DNA of 64,000 bases, taken from the NCBI GenBank assembly GCA_030141605.1, contig JAQGDQ010000014.1:124001-188000 (forward strand), written 5' to 3'. Numbering within the stretch: position 1 is the first letter of the stretch; the number at the start of each line of letters is the position of its first letter. Under the pieces are notes generated by a model. It searched no databases and had not been told where the DNA came from. It worked only from the letters and a program-made list of their open reading frames with translations. Below, in pieces: positions 344 through 60,553 of the stretch. The stretch is from Tubiluchus corallicola (Eukaryota; Priapulida; Priapulimorpha; Priapulimorphida; Tubiluchidae). Made by a program: the position numbers and the translations under genes.

Positions 344-3103
344 AAAATTAACGTAATGCTATTTTAGAAGTGACAGATCGTTGTTTTGGGATTAAAAAAA
401 TCGATCAGAATTTCTTTTCATCAATACCAATCAAACGTACATCGAAGATATGCAAAAAATACATAAGAATTAAACATTGTGATATTTTAAAGCGTTAACC
501 GAAAAGTATGTTTTTGTGAGCAAGCTCAAGTGTTTTCTGACAACCGATTTGTCCGATATTAAATAAAATATTGAGCCAATCAAACCTAAAGTTGTTAAAC
601 TGATCAGTCGATCACCAAGCAGCTATCGATCGTCACTGTTTATTTACGGACGACTGATTCACTTATTTAATTAATAATACTGGCATCGTTTGATCATTAT
701 GTTAACATTAAAGTCCAAACCTATGGATGAAATAAAATCACCACAAAAAAACAACAGACAGACTGGGAACCCCAATTGTGTTACAGCTTTATGATTTATT
801 CACTGTGTAGTTGTTTAAACATCAATTAACATCAATTTGTTGTACCCTCGCACTGCTAAATACTTTTGTATGTTTGCATATATGATATATGCATGTTTGA
901 TATACATTTTCAATAGAATTTTAAGTAACCGCTTAAGATCACATGACGAGATCTTAAGAACACAAAAACCAGACGGTGCAGTCTAGCGGTAACACGTCCG
1001 CTTTCCATCTAAGAGGTCGTGAGTTCGATACTGTAGCCGGGTCATAGCAAAGACTTTAAAAATGCCACCTGCTGTTGCCGTGCCTGGCGCGTAGTATTTA
1101 GCATAAAAGTGGAGTAATAATAATCTTTGTTATATAGGTGTATTTTGTTATTTACAGTCGGCGATAAAAGCCTGATGACATGTCATGTCTGCTAAATGTA
1201 AAGACGACTTTAAATAAAGGATATTATAATTATTATTGTGTAAGGATGCCCAAGACAGGATGATCATATCTATCTATCTATACATACATATAAATATGAG
1301 AGTGGGGATATTGAGAGTTATCAGTTGACTGTAATTAAGTGGCACTGTAATTCTTGTAACAAACGTAAAGACAGCTCAAGCCTGAAATGTAAATAAGTAA
1401 GACAAATGCAGCAGTTCACAGGCATTTCTTATTCGACATAACATGTGTATTACACGCAAAAAACATTACGCATTCTCAGTATCTCAGTGTGTACACAGGT
1501 TCTGCGTTTAGGTTTGCTCATAAAACTCCCTATACCCCATACTTATTCCCCATACTGACAGCCTTCGACAAAACAAAAATTTGCGAACAATTTATGTAAC
1601 CTGAAACTTGCAACTTAGGCACAATGCATCGTATATCATAATATAACTGAAAATAGACGCATAGTTGAGAAAAACATCGCGGTTTACTATGCCATAGCAG
1701 TTGCACCAAGCGTTTTCTGTACGCGAAAATACTTGTATAACCAAATCGACAATATGAAATATTAAGAGTAATTCCGGTTAAATAAATGGCGCTACAGACA
1801 AGATTTCATCTCAGGTTTATCGTTGAATTTACGACCTGAAACGGCGATTCGCCAATGGTAAAGTATTTAATGACGGTGGCAAATTAAAGCACTTTTATTT
1901 AGTTTTTCAATCTTCAAACTGCAATTTGTATACAGAACACATGTGGAATTCTGCCGTTTAAATACACCGAGTTTTTTATTTTGCTCATATGGGAAACTGT
2001 AACTGGTTAACAATTTTAGCTAATAAGCATTTTTGCTCGCTTTTGAACTTCATGGTTCTTCGACTTGCATATTTTATGCATATCTGAGAAGCGGACTATT
2101 CTGTCTGCGCAAAAACTTTCCGAACAAAACATTCTGTTAGCGAATTATCAATAATTCAGTTCGAAATAAATTACTAATAACAAACATCTGCCATTATTTG
2201 TTTTAAAATAAACTTTTATTTTTTTAACCTTTACTTGAAAAACATTCATAGTACAACGTTCTTTATAGTTCCAGTAATAAAATACTGATAAACCTTTCCT
2301 TAGAATCGGTATGGATAATCAAAATCAACAAAATGAAAAGTTATGGAATGAAAATGTTGCAATTCTGAATATATGCAAATCTTTTATCGTCTATACTCAG
2401 TAAACATGTTGATTCCTAGAGGCTGGTTCTCTCATGTATATGTAAAACTATCTTCAAGCTAAAACGACTCAATGTGGCATCAACTTAAATAATTTCAGTT
2501 AAATGCAAACAATGATATTTCAAATTACTGTAAATCAAAAATATAAGTGTTATCATTGGATGTCAAATGTGTGTGCGCCAAATCGCACGTTTCGCATATG
2601 AGTTTCCAGTTTTTGAAAAGCAATTTGAATCAAGAAACAGAAATTTATAAGTGACAACTGTCGCGCCTGTGACACAAGCAGTAATCAAACCACATAAAAA
2701 TGCTAAATGAAATGCACACGTGTAACATATGAAGAGCTATAGACACAATTTATTTGAAGTAATGATGAGAACTTACCTCTAGGCTAGTGAGTTAAAAGCA
2801 TAAAAAGTTTGTGATGTTAATATAAACACACACAACAAAAGCCAAAATAATGTAGGAAATTCACTGAAATACCTAATCACAAAAATGAAATAATGCAAGT
2901 GTACAAATAGGTAACAGATACATTTGAATGCTGAATAATATAAATGAATATTGAAAATACGTAATGTGCAGATTTGCTACAGAAAAAGATACAATCGAGT
3001 TCAACAAACTCAATAAAATTATCATGTTATTATTATGTCAGTGACTTAATTAATGTCTATCAAATAAACATCAATTTATACAGGCACACACAGCTTAAAT
3101 AAC
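344..3103. other. Intergenic, AT-rich; one SINE, otherwise nothing recognised
   Basis: Between the two convergent kinase-like genes I see no open frame with coding character. It holds the SINE at 972-1240, a short ATCT/ATAC microsatellite near 1270-1290 and long A/T runs. The 3' untranslated parts of both flanking genes presumably lie here. Confidence 0.5.
972..1240 (+). mobile_element. tRNA-derived SINE, copy 1 (head plus body)
   Basis: The head reads as a tRNA relic with an A-box-like TAGCGGTAACACG and a B-box-like GAGTTCGATAC about 35 bp later, i.e. an internal pol III promoter layout. A body of about 180 bp follows, ending CGACTTTAAATAAAGG and then an A/T-rich ATTATT tail. The body is clearly related to the reverse complement of 7497-7716. 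Shared words include GGGTCATA, GACTTTAAAAATG, CTGCTGTTGCC, TGGCGCGT and TTATTTACAGTCGG. Two diverged copies with one having a tRNA-like head is what defines a SINE. Confidence 0.75.
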
Positions 3104-3408
3104 ATGTCTCCAAATATTTCAACGGCAGTCTGCAGTCATTTTCAGTGATAGACTACACAAACAAACGACCAGTTATATAGGCAGAGCTACAGTACAGAAA
3201 TTATTCACTAATTATGTATTTACAAGGAAACCAAAATGCAATGAATTAATAGACCTGTAGAAAAGCTAGATTACATTTTGGCTTCCTTGTAGATAATAAT
3301 TAGTGAATAATTTCTGTACTGTTGTTCTGCCTTTATAACTGGTTGTCTGTTTGTGTAGTCTATCACTGAAGATGACTGCAGGCTGCAGTCGAAACATCTG
3401 GAGAAACG
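3104..3408. repeat. Large inverted repeat, arms of about 140 bp, Penelope-like end with hammerhead-like core
   Basis: The left arm (about 3104-3242) matches the reverse complement of the right arm (about 3271-3408) with scattered mismatches, leaving a spacer of about 30 bp. Shared blocks include GTGATAGACTACACAAACA and AGTACAGAAATTATTCACTA. The right arm carries CTGAAGA, a self-complementary stem built on GACTGCAG/CTGCAGTC, and then GAAAC. This is the order of the hammerhead ribozyme core (CUGANGA, stem II, GAAA) known from Penelope-like retroelement termini. The left arm has a degenerate version (CTGAAAA...GAAAT). No Penelope reverse transcriptase frame was seen nearby. The repeat sits 120 bp past the stop of the pseudokinase gene, so it may be transcribed in its 3' UTR. 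The family assignment is inferred. Confidence 0.75.
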
Positions 3409-3525
3409 TTTTTAGTTTAAAATTTTAATACAAGTTGTCTTCTTTTTATATCAAATAAACTTTTAAAACTGCCGATATACTTTTCTGTGAATCGCCTGTA
3501 TTAAAGTGCCTGAAAAATGCATAAT

Positions 3526-5352
3526 TCATGAAGGCACAACTTGTTTATCAAGCGAATCACAAAGTTCTTTAAACGAAGGCCTATCTCCCGGCTCAACCGA
3601 CCAAGTCTGCAGCTGTAATGTATAAATATCAAGTGGGCACAAGCTGCAACAAGGTATTCGATATGTGCCCTCGAGCACTCGCTTTACATAGTCATGCCCA
3701 TTAAGCTCACTATACGGGATCTCACCCTTGGAAAATACTTCATGGACCACTATACCAAACGACCAAACATCAGCTTTAACAGTTACAGCCCCTCCAAGAA
3801 CAGTTTCGGGGGCCTGCCACCGAATGGGAGAAAACTTTAATCGCCGCGGATCGTCATCAATGAAGTCCAAAGCGTAGTCTGATACTTTCACTTGCAAATC
3901 TGACATCAGATGGACATTACATGCACGAAGTTTTCCATGAGGAGTTCGCTTTTGTTCTAAATATGACATCCCACTAGCAATCTGTGTCAAAAACAGAATA
4001 ATCCGGGAAAGTTCAATATCAGTATTAATGGTAACATAGTCAAGAAGATTTCCACCTGGTGCAAGTTCCATGATATAATCTAATTCTTGGCCAATTTCAT
4101 TAGGTTTGCTGCTGTAGGGAATGCATGTGCCATAAACTTGAAGTAAATTTGGATGGTAGACCTTCTCTCGGCGTATCATAGAAGCGATGTCCATTGCATT
4201 TGTCCCGGGAACAGTTCGTCTTGCTGCTACTCTCAGCTTCAACATGCGAATCTCCAGAACTGCTTCAAACACTGTTCCCATGGCACCTTTTCCAAGCTCA
4301 TCTTCAAGAGTAAGAGCTGTTGTGGGTATTTCAGCTGGAAGTCGGGTTTCAAACAATGTGGGTTTAGTGCGTTCTAGTGGCACAGTTAAGCGACAACACA
4401 AGCCATCACCATTTGTAAAGGAGTTGATCAGATCAAACAAGGATTCAAAAACGCGATTATCTAGGGTAAACTGAGTTTCATCATCCGACACACATATATC
4501 GTAATGATAGACAATGCACTTGTTGTCTTCTACTCGGTCAAACACAGTCAAAATATAACTTGAACATCTACTGTCTTCAGTAGCAAGTTGTTCGTGCACA
4601 CAAAACATACCTTGTGAAATACCGGGAGTTGACTTAATGTGAAATTCAGCATACTTCCTGCCTAGTACACCATGATACCATGGATTGGCATCAAGACTAC
4701 CTACCTCAGCAACAAGAAGAGAATTAACATACCCTTCAACTCTTGTAGTCAAATGCTTCCCCCTCCACCAGAACTCGTGACGAGAGTGGGTGGGGTCGCT
4801 TTCATGTTTGTACAACAAATCCAACTGATCGCCTTTCTTAAAACTCAATTCTCCTGTTTGCTCTGCAGTATAATCAAAAAGCGCAATAACACTTAGTCGA
4901 GGAGTGTTCGGGTATTCTGAACCAGGCGGTGTACCCCACCAGAAGCACTCCTGTCCGGGATGAGAAAACCTGTCTTCATCTGCTTTGTCAAATATCAGTT
5001 TACCACGTAATTGGGTAGGCCTCGGACTCTCAGATAAGCTTAGGTCTTCTAGTGGCACCATTTCCTCGCTGCTGCTGCTGAACAAACCTGTTGGACTTGG
5101 GCCTGGACTTGGAGTTCCATAACTTGTTTTCCGTTGATGATCACCACTTCTTTTCCTTTGGAAACCTCCACTACTTTTCGATCCATGTGCAATATTTCTA
5201 AGATGCGTTGGCGACATCAAATCAGTGTCGTGACTGCTCTTCCTACGGTTTCCACCACTGAACTTTCTTGTCCTACTAAGTTCAGCCTTTTCTGATTCCG
5301 ATGGTTCACCCCCTGAGACCTTTCTTTTCACTGCTTTCAACAGCTTAGACAT
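3526..5352 (-). CDS. Intronless Abl-like SH3-SH2-pseudokinase
   Basis: A single uninterrupted 608-codon frame from ATG. Residues 1-115 are a basic, Ser-rich tail without an N-terminal glycine for myristoylation. An SH3 domain follows at about 155-216 (ALFDYTAEQTGELSFKKGD), an SH2 at about 225-325 (WYHGVLGR), and a kinase fold at about 348-605. The SH2-kinase linker PLERTKPTLF resembles the Abl linker, and NLLDYV and YLEQK are also Abl-like. The glycine loop GKGAMG and APE survive. However, the VAIK lysine is replaced (VAARR, 375-379), HRD reads HGK (472-474) and DFG reads DYA (492-494). The FLVR arginine of the SH2 is also lost (FCVH, 250-253). Catalysis and classical phosphotyrosine binding are thus both unlikely, and a scaffold role is inferred. 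Lack of introns suggests a retrocopy origin. The frame is long and clean, so it is probably a functional gene rather than a decayed one. Confidence 0.88.
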   Translation of the reverse strand: MSKLLKAVKRKVSGGEPSESEKAELSRTRKFSGGNRRKSSHDTDLMSPTHLRNIAHGSKSSGGFQRKRSGDHQRKTSYGTPSPGPSPTGLFSSSSEEMVPLEDLSLSESPRPTQLRGKLIFDKADEDRFSHPGQECFWWGTPPGSEYPNTPRLSVIALFDYTAEQTGELSFKKGDQLDLLYKHESDPTHSRHEFWWRGKHLTTRVEGYVNSLLVAEVGSLDANPWYHGVLGRKYAEFHIKSTPGISQGMFCVHEQLATEDSRCSSYILTVFDRVEDNKCIVYHYDICVSDDETQFTLDNRVFESLFDLINSFTNGDGLCCRLTVPLERTKPTLFETRLPAEIPTTALTLEDELGKGAMGTVFEAVLEIRMLKLRVAARRTVPGTNAMDIASMIRREKVYHPNLLQVYGTCIPYSSKPNEIGQELDYIMELAPGGNLLDYVTINTDIELSRIILFLTQIASGMSYLEQKRTPHGKLRACNVHLMSDLQVKVSDYALDFIDDDPRRLKFSPIRWQAPETVLGGAVTVKADVWSFGIVVHEVFSKGEIPYSELNGHDYVKRVLEGTYRIPCCSLCPLDIYTLQLQTWSVEPGDRPSFKELCDSLDKQVVPS

Positions 5353-22679: not shown

Positions 22680-23731
22680 ATTGAGAGTGACCATTAAGTT
22701 TGTTCAGACCTTTCAACATTAGCCCATCGATCCCTGCAGTTATACAATGCTTTAATTTGGCAACCTTCTTAATATTCCTATGGGCATGTAATAGATTCAC
22801 AATTTCAGTTAAGAGTTCATTAGGGGTCAAAACTAAAATTAAGGTGGGAAAGTGAAGTAGCTTCAGTTTGTATACGTAGTAAGTTTGCTCCACCAAAATT
22901 AAATCTTTTGCAAAAGGACACCACTGATTCTTACTCCGCAAAAAACTTTCGACATACACAAAACAGCAGGCATTTATCAGTATTTGGTCCCCAATACTGT
23001 ATTAGATAAATGGGATTTTTTGTGGAAGTCAGATAAAACCTGTAAGGAAGGGTAAGGATTTATTTTTCAGAATCACTTTTCAAGTTATAATAATGTAAGA
23101 TGAGTAAACGTATTTAGTTAATATAAAAAATAGGTTGGAGTAGGATAAATTCTCAGTACACATCATTCCAGGGTGCTGCAACCCACGAACTATTAAGTTG
23201 TAATAATGTGGCCTTATGTTTCCATGCTTACGTACCTTTTTTGCTAAGACATTTTATTGCTCGCCTTTGATACGGTGATGTAGCAAATCCGTTAAATGTT
23301 TGCAGCATTTGTTCGTATTCCAACTGCTGCCTGTAACTAAGCTGCTGACAATCCTCATGGTCATACCCCGAAGACTGCCACATTTCACCACTTCTCTGCG
23401 ACTGAGAACAAAACAAATCTACATAATCGGGCGGTGGAGCCTGATCCTCGCTGTATGATCGCTGTTGATAGTACTGCTGCTGTCGCTGTTGCTGGGTCAC
23501 GTATCGCTGAGTCGGGAATGGATTTTCAGGAGTTTGAGGTGTGTACGAACGTTGACTGTCGTAGCCTTCCTGCAGTTGCTCACATCGGGAAGCCACGATG
23601 TTACGATTTTGTTGTTGTCTTGCATGAAAATGTGTTGTGTGACCACCACCCGGGTTTTCCTGACCCTGTTGGGGAAGGTTCTTCTGGTGCTGGCAATGCT
23701 TCTTGTGAAACTGGTACTGTTCAGGATCCAT
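22680..23731 (-). CDS. Unrecognised Gln-rich protein, first two visible coding exons (partial)
   Basis: Exon 1 runs 23731 to 23236. The start is placed at the ATG of MDPEQYQFHKKH; an earlier in-frame ATG at 23815 is possible. It ends at a strong donor (AAAAAAG then GTACGTAAG), phase 1. Exon 2 runs 22832 to 22680, with a strong acceptor (pyrimidine run then AATTTTAG) and a near-consensus donor (CAAT then GTAAGT), again phase 1. Joining the two keeps the frame and forms a Val codon, which strongly supports the model. Exon 1 (165 codons) is low-complexity, rich in Gln, His, Tyr and Pro, with runs such as QQQRQQQYYQQR. Exon 2 (51 codons) is compact and probably helical, LTPNELLTEIVNLLHAHR followed by NIKKVAKLKHCI. 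I do not recognise the family. Further exons must lie below 22680 and were not found. Confidence 0.7.
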
Positions 23732-25734
23732 CTCATACGATGAAATTAATTTTTTAGCTCTTATACGAATAACAAATTTCAGATGTACGAAATTAGTGTG
23801 GCTTCCTTCACACATTAATGTGCAGCAACGTGATTTGTACTTTGCACATTTCTATAGGCTACTGTACCAACACCAGGACAGGGTAGTTCTTAAATTTTCC
23901 TATTTTAAGAATATCAAAACAGTACAAGTAACAAATCAATTACTGTGACAGGAACGAGTTAAAGTCAAACTACCGACACCGCTTATATGAAACGCTAGAA
24001 CCATGTGTTATTGTCACCGATTCACTGGCTTCTTGTGTGACTACTTATTGAAAACCTGTCGGATACAGATGCGAGCAGAACTTTAATACCGTCCCCGAAA
24101 GTCTTCTAACCTAAGTGTCATACCTGCAGTTGAAGTGACTCGGACAAGAGAGTACAATGGATGTCACGGGAGAGCAAATATACACAATTTAACGATATTT
24201 GTAACAAGGTATAGTATATAGCAAGGTAATACATTTAACGAAGTTAGCATATATATTTTCCTTTAATTGTTAGCAAACGCTTGTCGATAATGACCCAAGA
24301 CATAACTTCTAAGTTTAGGTTACATGTTTACTTCATTTAAAGTAAACAACACAGCAACGAGCGATGGTCAGAATTATTTAAATGCTGCGAAGCTTAATAA
24401 CAACAAAGTGATAAAAAGTGATGCTTCGAATACACGATGAATTAGCACTGACGTCAGCTTGCAGACTATATTATCACACGTTTGAACCAAATATCCATCA
24501 AGTATTGAAAGATTCTCAGCCTATCCAATATTTTAACCAATTTCGGTTGTTTTCATGTCGTTAGCTGCATCACATGTAACGTTTTTTCTTGAGTTTGATT
24601 CGATCAGTAACTCGAGTTGCCATTCAATTCACAACACCCACTGCACTCGAGAACCATCTAATTTGTCTCAGCTAGGCAGGCAGGCGTGCACACAGCTTCA
24701 CTGTTAACGTTTACAATAAACAAAGAGCTTCCGAATGCAACACAGAGCCGCAGTGGATACGGTATAATTTGCCTCGCTGTGTTATAATACGGACCCCGAC
24801 GATCCGTCTGAAATACAACTCATTGACTATAGACGTGTTCAGAAATGGTCGGCGTGAGACAGAATGCAGCACAGGCACACTTAGCAGCGAAAAAGCCGAA
24901 CTGTCCCAATCAATATGCTCGACACAATACTTATTTAGAAGCAGCAAGTATCTACACGTACAGGACGCGGACAGATTATGCGTTCCCACACAGACAGACA
25001 CAGTTATTAACTTCACTATAACATAACCTTAGCTTTACTGAGCAGTATAAAGGACAAGCCAAGGTGAAATACTCAATTCCAAACAAACAACGCTAAAGTA
25101 GAAAATATTAATTGTTAAAACAACTTCTAATTTTAACTTTAACTTGCAAAGAAAAAAGATTACATTTAATAGAAAAACTTGATCATCACTAGATAGTATA
25201 AAAACGAGTTGACAGGTGCTAATATTATTATAACCACTCTTAAACAGATCACTCTGCTTCAAACGATTACACTGTAGTGCCGACAGCTCAGGTGCAAATG
25301 AATATAATTGACTATTTATACACACACATATGTCGCCTACTCATCCACAGGCTAATCACCTTCCACCTTACACAGCCAGTTGAGTTAATTGCTAGCCTCT
25401 GATGCCGTTTATTAAAATTCTCATACGACAGCGCAATTGACAAAGTGTCTACGTTTCATAAGCAACATGATTAATCGAAAACGTTACAAGTACACTGGAC
25501 AATCCAAACATCCGAGATAATTTTGATCAATCGTCGTAATGACGGCAATGGCTGTAGAAATACGCTCATCAATTGGAGAATAATACTATTGGAATTTTGA
25601 ATTTTTTTGCAATATAATGGCGAGCACAAGTGGGGAGTGTACTTCATAAAATCATGCAGACTAGATTTGCTCAATATGCACTGCCAAATACAGCTTTTAC
25701 CGGTAAGTTCAGGGGTTGCCCTTACCATGTAGGT

Positions 25735-42039: not shown

Positions 42040-45000
42040 ATGCCAGTTAGGCACCCTTGCAATAAATGTGCTAGACCCTGTAAATATAATGAAAATTCTA
42101 TTAACTGTGATAATTGTTATCAGTGGACCCATTTAAGGTGCACTGCTCTGACAATTAACCAACCAATTCAATATACTAGGAAGTAATAATGATATTTATT
42201 ATTGTATTAAATGCTTAAATGATATTTTCCCCTTCCAGGAACAAGAGAATGAGGATATACAAGAATTTTTTAGGATAGATGTATCCATGTCAACTCTGAC
42301 CAGTCTACCTTCTTTGCGTGAGTTTTCTACTTTTACTAACTTTTCCACTAATAATAATGATCCTGATAACTTTCTTCCTTATCAAGAAAGTAATTATTAT
42401 AAACTGTCAACTCTAACTAGTCAAGATGACTTAGCAAATACCAGTAAGGATTTCACTTTTGTGCATTTTAATGTCAGTAGTATAAACAAAAATTACACTA
42501 GTATGTTAGACGTTCTTTTACACTTTCAAAACCCTCCTGACATTATAGCATTAAGTGAAACCCGTTTAAAAAAAGATCATATTTTTCTCACACCCTTACC
42601 TGGGTATCAATTTATTCGTGACGATTCTACAACCAATGCAGGTGGTGTGGGATTGTATATCAGAAACTCTGTAATTTTTTCAGAAATGCCTAAATACAAA
42701 ATACACAACTCAGACTGTAAAAATGGCTCCACAAACCGTGTGCAACTGGAGAATATGTGGATTGAAATAGAAACTCCACCCAACATCAAAAACATTTTAT
42801 TTGGAGTCATCTACAGGCACCCAAATACTAACCTTGAAGAATTTCATGAAGAACTAGAAAGCAAATTATCCTTAATTAACAGAACTAACAAATTTTGCTA
42901 TATATGCGGTGACATAAATATTAACTTACTACATAGTGACAGCAAAACCTCAGTGACAAATTATACAAACATGTTATTCTCTAATAATTTTGTGCCAATT
43001 ATAACTAAACCAACAAGAATAACTCATCATCACACTAATACACTCATTGATCATATTTATACAAATGACCTCACCAACCACGTAACACCTGGAATTTTGC
43101 TTTATCAAGTAGCCGACCATCTTCCTATATTTGCAATTATAAAGCATACTAAACTGAAAATGAAATCCAACAAAATCACCACAAGAAATTTTAAAAATTC
43201 AACTGAACAAAATTTTTTAAATAACCTGCAGCTAGAATTAGCCGAAATAAATTTTAATGACTTGGAAACTAATGAGGGATTTAGCAAATTTAATGAAATA
43301 CTCTTCAATGTGTTTAATAATCATTTTCCTTTGCAAACCCTGTCTAGGAAAGACACTATTACATTTCAAAAACCATGGATCACTAAAGGAATTTTAAATA
43401 GTATTAAAACCAGATCACGCCTTTACAAATCACACAAACTCTCAAATAATTTATACAAACAAATCTACTACAAATCCTACTCAAATAAATTAAATCATGT
43501 CAAGGAATCATCAAAAAAACAATATTACACTGAAACATTGCAAAAACACAAGAATAACATGAAAAAAACTTGGGAAACAATAAACAGTATTATAAAAACT
43601 GATCCAAAAACACGTCAAACACCAAGTAAGTTAACAATAAATAATGTGGACTATACAGATACATATGATATTGCCAGTAAACTAAATGAGTTTTTTGTAA
43701 ATATAGGACCTGACATGGCTGCCAAAATACCTAAACCTAACGTTAATTTTACTGACTTTTTAAAAAAACCCTAACCCAAATTCTTTTTTCATTAATCCTA
43801 TTACTGAAAATGAAACATGCACACTTTTAAACACACTTAATTCAAACAAATCACCAGGACCACAAAATATACCAATATCCTTTTTAAATCTGCAAGTCAA
43901 ATTATTTCACCAATACTCACATTACTGTTTAATAAATCGGTTAATGCTGGAACTTTTCCAAATATATTAAAAATAGCAAAAGTTATTCCTTTATATAAAA
44001 CTGGCTCTCCACATGAACCTGGCAATTACAGACCAATATCTCTCTTATCACCAGTATCAAAAGTTTTTGAGAGGCTAATTTACAAGAGATTATACCAGTT
44101 TGTTGTGAAAAGTAATATCCTAAGTAAATACCAGTTTGGTTTCAGAAAAAATTATTCAACTGCCCTTGCTGTATCCGAATTAATAGACACGATCTCTCTA
44201 GACACAGACAAAAAATTACTGAATTGCGGAATATTTTTAGACTTATCAAAAGCTTTTGATACCGTACAGCATAGTATACTAATAGCCAAATTAAACCATT
44301 ATGGCATCAGAGGTCTACCTTTGCAACTAATTCAGTCATATCTAACTAACAGAAAACAATTCATATCTATTAACAATGTATCATCAGACTATAAACACAT
44401 ATCGTGTGGAGTGCCACAAGGCTCTAATTTAGGACCTCTTCTATTCTTAATTTATATTAACGATCTTCCCACATGCAGCAACTTTCGAACCCGAATATTT
44501 GCCGATGACACTAATTTGTTCATGTCTGACTCTAATATAAATAATCTGCAAAAATCTGTTAATGACGAAATGAAAAAAATAGACCTGTGGATGAGGGCAA
44601 ACCAGCTATCAATTAACTACAAAAAAACCAAATTTATGATAATCAACAATAAGCAAATTAACAATGCTAATAATCCAAAATTTCATATTATAATAAACAA
44701 ACACAAAATTGAAGAAACAGACAACATCAAATACTTGGGCCTACTCATTGATAATAAATTAACATGGGAACCACATATAAAACACATAACATACAAATTA
44801 AGTCGAATTACTGGAATAATTTTAAAAGTAAGGCACTACGTTGACCAATATATTCTGAAACTTCTATATAATTCGTTAGTTTTCCCTTATTTACAATATT
44901 TCATCTTAACATGGGGTACAGCTTTTGCATCAACTCAAAAATTAATACAGACACAACAAAACAAAATAGTAAAATTAATAACTTTTGCTCGCAAATATGA

Positions 45001-45346
45001 TCATGCTACACCATCGTTCGTAAAATTAAAAATTTTAAAAGTAAGAGATATTTACAATCTTGAGTTGTTCAAATTTATGTATAAATTCAATGCTGGTTTA
45101 TTACCCGAACTTTTTAGAGAATATTTCACTAATGTTTCTGATATACATTCCTACTCCACAAGAGCTGCTTCTAATGAACAGTATTTTGTGGAGAGATTTC
45201 TTACCCGACATGGTTTCAATAGCTTAAAATCACGAGGAGTTAAATTATGGAACTCGTTGCCAAAAGATACCTTTGGCGGTAGCTTATTTTCTGCTTCCAA
45301 AAAATACACAAAATTCTTACTAAATGAATATACCTGTAATACATAA
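42040..45346 (+). pseudogene. ORF2 of the CR1-like element (PHD, endonuclease, reverse transcriptase), frameshifted
   Basis: It starts MPVRHPCNKCARPC with a CxxC...CxxC...WxH..C pattern completed in the next frame by YYCIKC, a PHD-like finger broken by a frameshift near 42170. The apurinic/apyrimidinic endonuclease follows (FVHFNVSSINKN, IIALSETRL, GGVGLYI, GVIYRHPN, GDININ). A frameshift occurs near 43775 in an A-run and another near 43885. The reverse transcriptase is then open from 44105 to 45346: FLDLSKAFDTV, GVPQGSNLGPLLF, the catalytic FADDTNLF, IKYLGLLIDN and WNSLP near the C-terminus. The catalytic Asp pair is intact. The protein cannot be made as one chain in this copy. Confidence 0.88.
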
Positions 45347-52181: not shown

Positions 52182-54605
52182 ATGTCATATCAAATTAAAA
52201 TTAATTTCAGAGAATATAAGTCATTAATTGAAGACATTGAAAATGATGATGAGCGCCTTCAACGTCAGCTGAGATTAAAAAGTGCAGTGCTAATTTCTCA
52301 CCAAGAAGCTATCAGCCATCAGTGGGAATTGATTAAAAGATGGGAGCCTAAATCAGACACGTATGCTGCTTGTTATTTTAGAAATTCGTATAATTTATTT
52401 TAAACACTGCTATTGCCTTTTTGTAAAATGTAATTGCAATCATCTGGCATCATAAATTATCACTTTTTTGTAATTACCAACCTTATCAAAGTTTTGGTTT
52501 TTAAGCTAAACTTAAGTATTGTGTGAATGTTCCTGGTATCCCTCACTTCCCCAGTATTCTAGGATTAATCGTATTCATCATCAAATGTAAATTACATGTA
52601 ATGTAGACATATAGGGCAGACAGAATTCTAAAATAAAAGAAATCTGTGCTCAAGACAGGTAATCACAGCAGTAATTCAGCACCACTTCTGACATTTGATT
52701 AATTACGTCTTTTGTTACCAGGACTCAGTTCACTGCTGCTAAATTTGTGAAAAATACGTTCTATTTTTGAACGTTATAATAACGGCTCGTTGTGTATATC
52801 AAAAAAATTTTTTTAGATTCATCATCGGTGAGTTAATTTTATTGATTAGATTTTATAAATTGTTTAGTAATTGTTATGTATTACACTAATTTATTTTTAC
52901 TACTTTTTATACTTTATTGCTGAAACAACTGGTGCAGATGCACTTCAAAAAGTTTTTAATAAGAACATAATTTTGTTCTATATCTGCAAATGGACATCTG
53001 CACATTGTCCTAAGTGCACTTTCTAGGTACTGTTGCATGTTTCCAGAAACAATTGATAATCAAAACTGACATGAAGCAGCATTAGATTGTGGACCAGTCT
53101 TTCTGAAGTCTACTACACAAACATATATTATATGAAGAATACAAATATTCTTAAACACATACAGGCTAAGAGCGACATCAAAGCATGTCCTGTCCGAGAA
53201 GTATTTAACATCTTAAGTCGTGGCTTTTTAGGGCAAAGTTTTCAAGTTTTAACCTTTACTGTATTAGCAATTTATTTTGATTTTGAGGTTATAATTATCT
53301 AAACTTTTCTATTGTTCTCTAAAGAATTTGAGTTTGTGCACCATTTTAGATAATGTAGACCTGTAGTAGTTTCTATTTTCTAATACCTGTGCTTACGTAT
53401 CTTCTCAATGCTGTAGCCTCTAAACTGTAGAACTTAAAAAGTCCTACAGTCTGTTATTACTATAAGCTTTAGGATTATGATGATTAAATAAGAATACTAT
53501 TAACACTACAAGGACTAGAAAAATTTACTACCTAGAAGGACCATCATGCCAGTTGATGCAATCATAGTTTTCATTCCTATACAAAAATAAAACTAGTAGT
53601 TATTATTCAGATTTTATTAAAATTCAGTGATACATCAGAAAATTGTAGACTTAAAACAAAATACAGTGTCAAAATTAATTCGCTGATTTTCATGCACTGA
53701 TGTATGTTTACATGTTTACATTCACATTTACTACTGAGATGTAAGTACATTGTGTTGATTTTCAATGTACAATATATATTGGTGTCAATTGATGCAGATG
53801 TCCTTCTAGGTAGTAGCCTTTTTCAACTATGAATAGTAATATTTCAGTCCTGAAATTCTGTTGAATAAGTAGCTAGCACTGCACTAGGAAAAGTAATTAA
53901 AAAACAGGAGTGAATCCTCCAGAGATTCCAGTGATATGCACAAAATAAACAAAATGCTATCAGTTGACGTGCCTGGTCCTTCTAGCATTAATAATACTAC
54001 ATAGTCAGTTGAAGGTGCATATTTAGTCTTGTTTTTGCAGGCGGATATTTCGTTACGGTACCGTTTTTGAGGCTCTCTCTGCAGGTATGGCTGGACTGTA
54101 TTTCCAAGCTCACTACAGGTCAGTGTTCAAGCTTGGTGTATATGGTTTTGCCTCTACATATCTTGCTACAACATTTTTGCCAGTATTTATGACTGGCTTG
54201 TTTCAGCACTCTCAAGTGAACTCTGATATTATAATTGGAAAGACGCCGTGCTTGATTTGCCTCCAGGTTCGATCTGCAACGATACAGACATTGTTAGGAA
54301 CCATTTATCCACTTTTCTTGGCTCCAGTAGCTGCCTCATTTGTTGCTTCTAGGTACCACACTTATCCAATTCCTGAGTTGAAGCAGTATAAGTCAATCAT
54401 AGAGCTTTGGAAGGACCTGACAAAGCCAATAATGCGACATATTGGACTGTTTGCCGCCTTTCAAATTGCTGTGGCTTCAATGGTCACGTATAAAGAAATA
54501 GAACAAATTCAAGTTTTTAAGCAAAAGGTCTGGCAGCGTGAAGTTCAAAAAGAAAAGGTAAAAGAGAATGTAGACATGCAGCAAATAAGCAATGAATTCT
54601 CTTGA
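52182..54605 (+). CDS. TMEM126: TMEM126 family protein (mitochondrial inner membrane), two coding exons
   Basis: Exon 2 (54041-54605) is clear. It follows a good acceptor (TCTTGTTTTTGCAG) and encodes RIFRYGTVFEALSAGMAGLY, then LPVFMTGLFQ, the TMEM126 hallmark PCLICLQVRSATIQ, and GTIYPLFLAPVAASFVASRY. These align with TMEM126A/B positions CETCTITRSG and GGLYPVFLA. Exon 1 ends at 52360 (AGACAC then GTATGC), phase 2. Joining gives SDT-RIFRYG in frame. Its start is either the ATG at 52182 or an upstream exon spliced to the acceptor TTAATTTCAG at 52210, which has a TACTAAC branch site just before. TMEM126 proteins are multi-pass mitochondrial proteins that assist complex I assembly; several hydrophobic segments are visible. 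The predicted length of about 248 residues is near the family range. Confidence 0.85.
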
Positions 54606-56712: not shown

Positions 56713-58780
<2,068 letters not shown>

Positions 58781-59059: not shown

Positions 59060-60553
59060 TTATGCTTTATTGGGTTTGGTAACACCTGGCAGTCCTAGGT
59101 GATCAAATTCCATGGCATCATTGTGTGGCTTTATTCTCACAGTCTTACGTGCCTTTACACATCTTTCTAAACATGTTACACACAAGCCCAGGAGAATGCC
59201 ACCAGCCAACATTAAAAATACAGACTGGAGTTGTTTCAACCGAATTGGCTCTAAAACTGCACGTACAAACGACATTCGTTTGTGGTGACACAGAACAGAG
59301 TCCCCGTACAAGGCATTTACATGTTTTGTGTATAAACCACTTGCATCCAATGATTCAAGTCCGTAATTTAGAGCAGCAACGTATTTGCTGCTGGTATTCC
59401 GTTTGGGGATTGCCCATGAAGCATAGGAATCGAGAAACTGCGGAGAAGGTGCAATAGTGAAACGACATTTCTTATGCTTCTTATAGTCACGGCTGATCTT
59501 CAGTTTTGCAGCTACAAGGTCATCAAAGAACGTGTAATGCCCTGTTGCAGTCAAATCCATGGCTTCTGTTGTAAAATCTACTAGGTAGATGTCATTTCGC
59601 TGCATTTTCTGCCAGAGTTGTCCCAGTTCCGACTCGGAATGGCTGGTGTTCAGGTAGTAAAGTTCTGTGTAATATCTTTTTGTGATTACTGATATTTTCT
59701 TGCTGTTTATAAGATCTTTCAGAGAAAAGAATGGATACTCAGGCTGCCTAACTGTAAACAAGCTGAAGAGAGTTCCAGCATATAGGGAGGAAATTGTTAT
59801 TGCAAAAAGCCACCAGAAAAAAATGAGTATACGCCCTGTTGTTGATTGTGGCATCCTTTCAAACAGCCATCCCTGACGTAGTACACATGCAACCATATGT
59901 AGATAATGGTCTATTATAGAATGCCTTCTTATGACGATTTTGCTCGTGTGGGGCTCAAGTCTTTCATACATGTACATAATACAACATGTTGTAACAATAC
60001 ATCCGAACAACACAAGACGAATCGATCCAGATAGTGATGCGAGAAAATCTGTTGCTTGCTCAATTCCTGTTGGATACTTAATTATAAATACTTCGGATGT
60101 GTACTGTATGGGGCGCAAAAATCCCATTTTAGCGAACCGTTCAGTAGTCATGCGTCGGATATTAAGACGTAAGTCTATGACCCCTGCATTGAATACGTCA
60201 ACTTCTGATACACTGTAATTAAAGAATTGTATGGTAAATGTGAAGTTAAGCATTCTTGATAACACGTTAAGGGCTGGTAAATGCATTTGGGCTAACCAGT
60301 TGTCAACCTTCGAAGAATCTCCTTCTGTCCAATAGCCTGTGCGAATATTCATTCCATCCAAGTTATACTGCACATTGTTGAGTCCCACTTTTCTTTTTTG
60401 CACGCTCCCATTTGAGTAAAATAAAACTGGTTTGCTTTTGTTCACACACCAAACTGTGATGTCACGTAAAGCATGGCCAGTAGTAGAAATGTGCTTGACT
60501 GCAACAGTAAGCGTAATGATTGCGAAGCACGCGTTACTGATAAACATTATCAC
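59060..60553 (-). CDS. Intronless ionotropic receptor (IR) of the variant glutamate-receptor family
   Basis: A single 497-codon frame. Residues 1-20 are a hydrophobic signal-like segment. A divergent two-lobe ligand-binding region follows: S1 at about 80-160, including TTERFAKMGFLRPIQYTSE, where the Arg after Thr matches the position that binds the amino-acid carboxylate in iGluRs. TM1 is at about 178-196. The pore region VLRQGWLFERMPQS leads into TM2 at about 241-263 (FFWWLFAITISSLYAGTLFS), then S2. TM3 is at about 441-463 (LQSVFLMLAGGILLG). The order S1-TM1-pore-TM2-S2-TM3, no amino-terminal domain and the PIRLKQLQSVF lead into TM3 are typical of protostome IRs, which are chemosensory cation channels. 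Single-exon, divergent IRs are common in arthropods. An AATAAA overlaps the end of the coding region just before the stop. Ligand unknown. Confidence 0.88.
   Translation of the reverse strand: MIMFISNACFAIITLTVAVKHISTTGHALRDITVWCVNKSKPVLFYSNGSVQKRKVGLNNVQYNLDGMNIRTGYWTEGDSSKVDNWLAQMHLPALNVLSRMLNFTFTIQFFNYSVSEVDVFNAGVIDLRLNIRRMTTERFAKMGFLRPIQYTSEVFIIKYPTGIEQATDFLASLSGSIRLVLFGCIVTTCCIMYMYERLEPHTSKIVIRRHSIIDHYLHMVACVLRQGWLFERMPQSTTGRILIFFWWLFAITISSLYAGTLFSLFTVRQPEYPFFSLKDLINSKKISVITKRYYTELYYLNTSHSESELGQLWQKMQRNDIYLVDFTTEAMDLTATGHYTFFDDLVAAKLKISRDYKKHKKCRFTIAPSPQFLDSYASWAIPKRNTSSKYVAALNYGLESLDASGLYTKHVNALYGDSVLCHHKRMSFVRAVLEPIRLKQLQSVFLMLAGGILLGLCVTCLERCVKARKTVRIKPHNDAMEFDHLGLPGVTKPNKA

Follow-up and report, generated by a model that had tools for sequence, protein, structure and literature searches.

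A tail-to-tail pair of degenerate SH3-SH2-kinase genes, most likely Src-derived, as candidate non-catalytic proteins in Tubiluchus corallicola

Two intronless genes at one locus

The window analyzed here, 64,000 nucleotides of contig JAQGDQ010000014.1 from the priapulid Tubiluchus corallicola, carries the gene P0001 and the 3′ end of a second gene, L002, both of which encode degenerate SH3-SH2-kinase proteins (Table 1). An earlier note on this DNA had described a 608-codon open frame for an Abl-like protein; the frame proved to be real, and we add that it occupies the minus strand and that an in-frame stop precedes its ATG by 22 codons. The domain search that the note had proposed matched SH3_1, SH2 and PK_Tyr_Ser-Thr, in the domain order of the Src family. 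The N-terminal extension contains six R/K-R/K-x-S/T sites, and the protein starts with MSKLLK, having no Gly2 for myristoylation, unlike what is expected of the Src family. Only 7 residues follow the kinase domain, and the long C-terminal extension of Abl-type proteins is absent. An AlphaFold model built from the single sequence was uninformative (mean pLDDT 33). Directly downstream of the P0001 stop lies a MITE-like inverted repeat whose 118-nt arms are 88% complementary.

L002, which comprises 553 codons counted from the ATG chosen, is arranged tail to tail with P0001, the two stops being 3.2 kb apart. The two proteins are 34% identical (E 6e-49); in L002, Pfam detected the kinase domain and, weakly, SH2, and the SH3 domain was visible only by alignment to P0001.

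Table 1 Features of the window (positions within its 64,000 nucleotides).
Feature	Position	Strand	Remarks
3′ end of L002	1–343	+	second degenerate SH3-SH2-kinase gene; start outside the window
Inverted repeat	3098–3413		MITE-like
P0001 open reading frame	3526–5352	−	608 codons, intronless; N-terminal extension, SH3, SH2, candidate pseudokinase domain
N-terminal extension	4903–5352	−	residues 1–150; Ser-rich, basic
SH3 domain	4726–4887	−	residues 156–209; Pfam SH3_1 E 3.4e-10
NSLL	4714–4725	−	residues 210–213; replaces SH3 ligand motif PSNY
SH2 domain	4420–4680	−	residues 225–311; Pfam E 1.6e-5
His253	4594–4596	−	replaces SH2 beta-B5 Arg (FCVH)
Tyrosine-kinase-like domain	3550–4314	−	residues 347–601; PK_Tyr_Ser-Thr E 3.5e-48
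Arg378	4219–4221	−	replaces VAIK Lys
HGK	3931–3939	−	residues 472–474; replaces HRD
DYA	3871–3879	−	residues 492–494; replaces DFG, Asp kept
Gln-rich ORF	23228–23815	−	
Open frame	23341–23757	+	overlaps the Gln-rich ORF
Non-LTR element	42152–45346	+	endonuclease ORF (Exo_endo_phos E 4.5e-10), then reverse-transcriptase-like ORF
TMEM126 gene or exon	54027–54605	+	E 8e-20
RING-like stretch	58502–58780	−	
Ionotropic-receptor-like ligand-gated channel ORF	59060–60553	−	Lig_chan E 5.5e-17; apparently intronless

Residues lost and residues kept

Pseudokinases are proteins with a kinase fold that lack one or more of the VAIK Lys, the HRD Asp and the DFG Asp. P0001 was compared with twelve active SH2-tyrosine kinases, nine from this genome and three human. 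Its VAIK Lys is Arg (VAARR), HGK stands in the place of HRD, and Ser replaces the alpha-C Glu, in a stretch that is aligned with less certainty. In the D-Y-A that stands for DFG, Phe has become Tyr and Gly has become Ala. The glycine loop (GKGAMG), the DFG Asp, the catalytic-loop Asn (HGKLRACN), the HRD His, APE, the alpha-F Asp-x-Trp and the RPxF Arg are kept, and the gatekeeper is Met. No Tyr occurs between DYA and APE, where the activation-loop Tyr would lie, and none occurs after residue 577, so that an inhibitory C-tail Tyr is lacking. All of the motifs that the earlier note had quoted (VAARR, HGK, DYA, FCVH, the glycine loop and APE) are present; its claim that every placeable catalytic residue had been lost holds for the VAIK Lys and the HRD Asp and fails for the DFG Asp, the catalytic-loop Asn and the HRD His. 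P0001 is accordingly best described, from its residues, as a strong candidate for a pseudokinase that has lost the VAIK Lys and HRD Asp and kept the DFG Asp.

The ligand sites of the two smaller domains are likewise altered. At beta-B5 of SH2 a His replaces the phosphotyrosine-binding Arg, as had been claimed, and Gln replaces the Ser that follows. The SH3 sequence GYVNSLL corresponds to GYIPSNY in HCK and in an in-genome Src gene (L066); three of the usual SH3 ligand-site residues are thus changed, and ABL1 and Csk retain P-S/A-N-Y. The earlier note mentioned neither this SH3 change nor the alpha-C Ser, the Met gatekeeper, the missing activation-loop Tyr and L002.

L002 has FCVH in SH2, HKA for HRD, NYA for DFG and a Met gatekeeper; in this protein the DFG Asp has been lost as well. 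FCVH, xYA for DFG, FETR-x-P and the Met gatekeeper are common to the pair. At 57 positions the active SH2-tyrosine kinases are invariant. Both proteins retain 27 of these residues, including the HRD His, the catalytic-loop Asn, the Pro-Glu of APE, the alpha-F Asp-x-Trp and the RPxF Arg, and both have lost 11, including the SH2 Arg, the alpha-C Glu, the Arg and Asp of HRD, and the Phe and Gly of DFG. The residues kept by both are those of the fold. Moreover, 22 derived residues, C251, H253, M428, Y493 and A494 among them, are common to both proteins and absent from every active kinase aligned.

P0001 and L002 formed a clade in the tree with support of 98/96. Because both have long branches, an artefact may account in part for this grouping; the E value of 6e-49 between them, the shared FCVH, FETR-x-P and xYA, and their adjacency argue against such an artefact. 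The shared FCVH, xYA and alpha-C Glu loss are most simply explained if the common ancestor had already lost the phosphotyrosine Arg of SH2, the Phe and Gly of DFG and the alpha-C Glu; the catalytic HRD Asp had probably gone by then too. Genome searches for a third family member with P0001 and L002 as queries returned each other and then ordinary kinases. A viral origin of P0001 was also considered, and a scan of IMG/VR gave no relative.

Other kinase-like genes of this genome have unusual motifs as well. In three intronless genes (L008, L009 and L010; G000 C1849, C1602 and C1328), a CD20-like membrane part of four helices (Pfam CD20 E 4.6e-7 in L008) is fused to a tyrosine-kinase-like domain, in which HRD reads CRD and DFG reads KFG. 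These genes constitute a second pseudokinase-like family, to which L012 (C602), with CYD and RFG, appears to be related. A receptor-kinase-like exon with NMS for DFG (L006, G000 C2137) is possibly a CCK4/PTK7-type pseudokinase.

Maintenance and parentage of the pair

Across 440 aligned codons, P0001 and L002 were identical at 0.48, 0.56 and 0.31 of first, second and third codon positions, respectively, chance identity being about 0.26–0.27, and the four-fold sites of identical codon boxes matched at only 10 of 52. Silent sites are therefore saturated between the two genes, and amino-acid-changing sites are not. Both frames are nevertheless open over 550–600 codons. When the aligned region was evolved neutrally to 34% identity, none of 2000 runs was free of stops; the two copies together accumulated a mean of 22 and never fewer than 8. 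Saturated silent sites, conserved second positions and stop-free frames together indicate an old, selected pair rather than a decaying retrocopy, and we conclude that selection, as seen in the comparison of the two paralogues, has long maintained P0001 and L002. These results, together with the retained fold residues, support the earlier view of a maintained, non-catalytic protein. That P0001 is instead a decaying duplicate or pseudogene, still open by chance, would agree with its fast evolution and its many lost conserved residues, but decay hardly leaves two open frames at saturated silent divergence or 27 of 57 invariant residues in both copies, and we regard it as most improbable. Since the signal of selection spans a long period between paralogues, it is possible that P0001 alone lost its function very recently.

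The best PDB matches of both proteins were Src-family chains, each 44 bits above ABL1 (HCK, 209 versus 165 bits, for P0001; SRC, 130 versus 86 bits, for L002). In trees whose comparison sequences were stitched from exons, and are approximate at the joins, P0001 alone joined the Src family at 84/92 and stood beside two in-genome Src genes (L062 and L063) at 61/97; the family names of in-genome kinases were assigned from motifs. Holding the pair with Abl lowered the log-likelihood by 8.4 (p-AU 0.10), and by 6.2 in a second Abl-constrained comparison (p-AU 0.18); placement with Csk gave an AU p of about 0.29. The pair is thus most likely derived from the Src family, toward which the tree leans, the AU test being compatible with Abl or Csk. 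The kinase phylogeny that had been called for leans toward Src and disfavors the label "Abl-like", which the structure scores do not support either.

The earlier reading, a retroposed Abl-type copy maintained as a scaffold, draws on the domain order, which is the same in Abl, and on the absence of introns from P0001 when the Abl, Src and Tec genes of this genome have many. Parentage from Abl is disfavored by the 44 bits that separate Src-family chains from ABL1 for both paralogues and by the 8.4 log units that an Abl placement costs; furthermore, a normal Abl gene with several exons (L069) is present in this genome. Csk, Shark, a JAK-like gene, a TAO-like gene and other kinases form single long open frames here, and given that so many conserved kinases are intronless, the intronless state of P0001 hardly demonstrates retroposition. 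A retroposed origin would fit the multi-exon structure of Src, Tec and Abl and is possible; a poly-A tract or target-site duplication would not be expected to survive at the age of the pair. As a whole, the Abl retrocopy is quite unlikely. A Csk origin would mean that an intronless Csk-like gene underwent tandem duplication, without retroposition, and that its catalytic residues were lost. In its favor, the in-genome Csk gene (L003) is itself intronless; P0001, like Csk, lacks Gly2 and an activation-loop Tyr, and the AU test did not reject this placement. It is nonetheless unlikely, as Src-family structures score best and P0001 alone joins Src at 84/92.

Proposed role

We consider it probable, on the strength of the sequences, that P0001 and L002 are an old Src-type pair that was largely degenerate before duplication, that both copies have been kept intact, and that they serve as non-catalytic binding partners. 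As the enzyme residues and the usual SH2 and SH3 ligand residues have been lost, the pair probably works by binding proteins rather than by catalysis. An alternative to this role, an atypical active kinase or nucleotide-binding switch acting through the retained DFG Asp and Asn, could also invoke the glycine loop and HRD His of P0001. However, P0001 lacks the VAIK Lys, the alpha-C Glu and the HRD Asp all at once, which makes catalysis unlikely, and L002 has lost the DFG Asp as well; we consider this alternative very unlikely. Binding of a nucleotide or metal by P0001 is possible, because the DFG Asp and Asn are retained.

If the pair consists of binding partners, the two proteins would phosphorylate nothing, and their kinase and SH2 folds would offer binding surfaces independent of phosphotyrosine and PxxP peptides. 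P0001 may be a scaffold, or it may partner an active Src-type kinase, or the clients of such a kinase, competitively or allosterically, and basophilic Ser/Thr phosphorylation of its N-terminal extension would perhaps switch it. The reading that fits best is a role in Src signaling as scaffold, decoy or allosteric partner. The more specific proposal, of a lineage-specific Src-derived family that abandoned the ligand sites of SH3, SH2 and kinase domains, kept the folds and became a phosphotyrosine-independent structural partner or decoy for Src signaling, is tentative and, in our estimate, less likely to be right than wrong.

Among known systems, the Src family (HCK, SRC and the in-genome L062, L063, L065 and L066) is closest, with the same SH3-SH2-linker-kinase order, an EIP-type linker and the best scores for both paralogues, but its FLVR Arg, VAIK Lys, alpha-C Glu, HRD and DFG are intact, of which last P0001 keeps only the Asp, and it has an activation-loop Tyr and, in this genome, introns. 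ABL1 shares the SH3-SH2-kinase order and differs in its lower scores, its SH2-kinase linker and its C-terminal extension, and the tree leans away from it. CSK resembles P0001 in domain order, in being intronless here and in lacking an activation-loop Tyr; all of its catalytic and FLVR positions are intact, and tree support for joining it to P0001 does not exceed that for Src. Receptor tyrosine pseudokinases such as HER3, EphB6 and PTK7 similarly keep a kinase fold for non-catalytic signaling, but are transmembrane receptors without SH3-SH2.

Pseudokinases and SH2 domains lacking the FLVR Arg are each already known. What appears new is their combination in one Src-type SH3-SH2-kinase protein: in the part of the literature that is open and was searched, we found neither this combination nor a Src- or Abl-type cytoplasmic pseudokinase. 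Of more than 120 human SH2 domains, only 3 lack the FLVR Arg, and the SH2 domain of TYK2 has His at that position (PMC7530234). This domain and those of other JAKs bind receptor tails without phosphotyrosine (PMC7530234), a precedent on which the proposed binding mode of P0001 would be modeled. JAKs also unite a pseudokinase domain (JH2) with SH2, the FLVR Arg being His in TYK2; unlike P0001, they have FERM and an active JH1 and no SH3, and as P0001 has no active kinase domain, the likeness is one of analogy only. If the function is real, the pair would show that a whole Src module can be converted into a non-enzymatic part, and would offer a natural test of what the SH3, SH2 and kinase folds do without their usual ligands.

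The features in the remainder of the window are given in Table 1; Pfam returned no match for the minus-strand Gln-rich ORF. Elsewhere in the genome, a short 18S probe located a partial 18S rRNA copy that unrelated DNA interrupts (L061, G000 C555), and the same contig carries a second partial 18S match, oppositely oriented.
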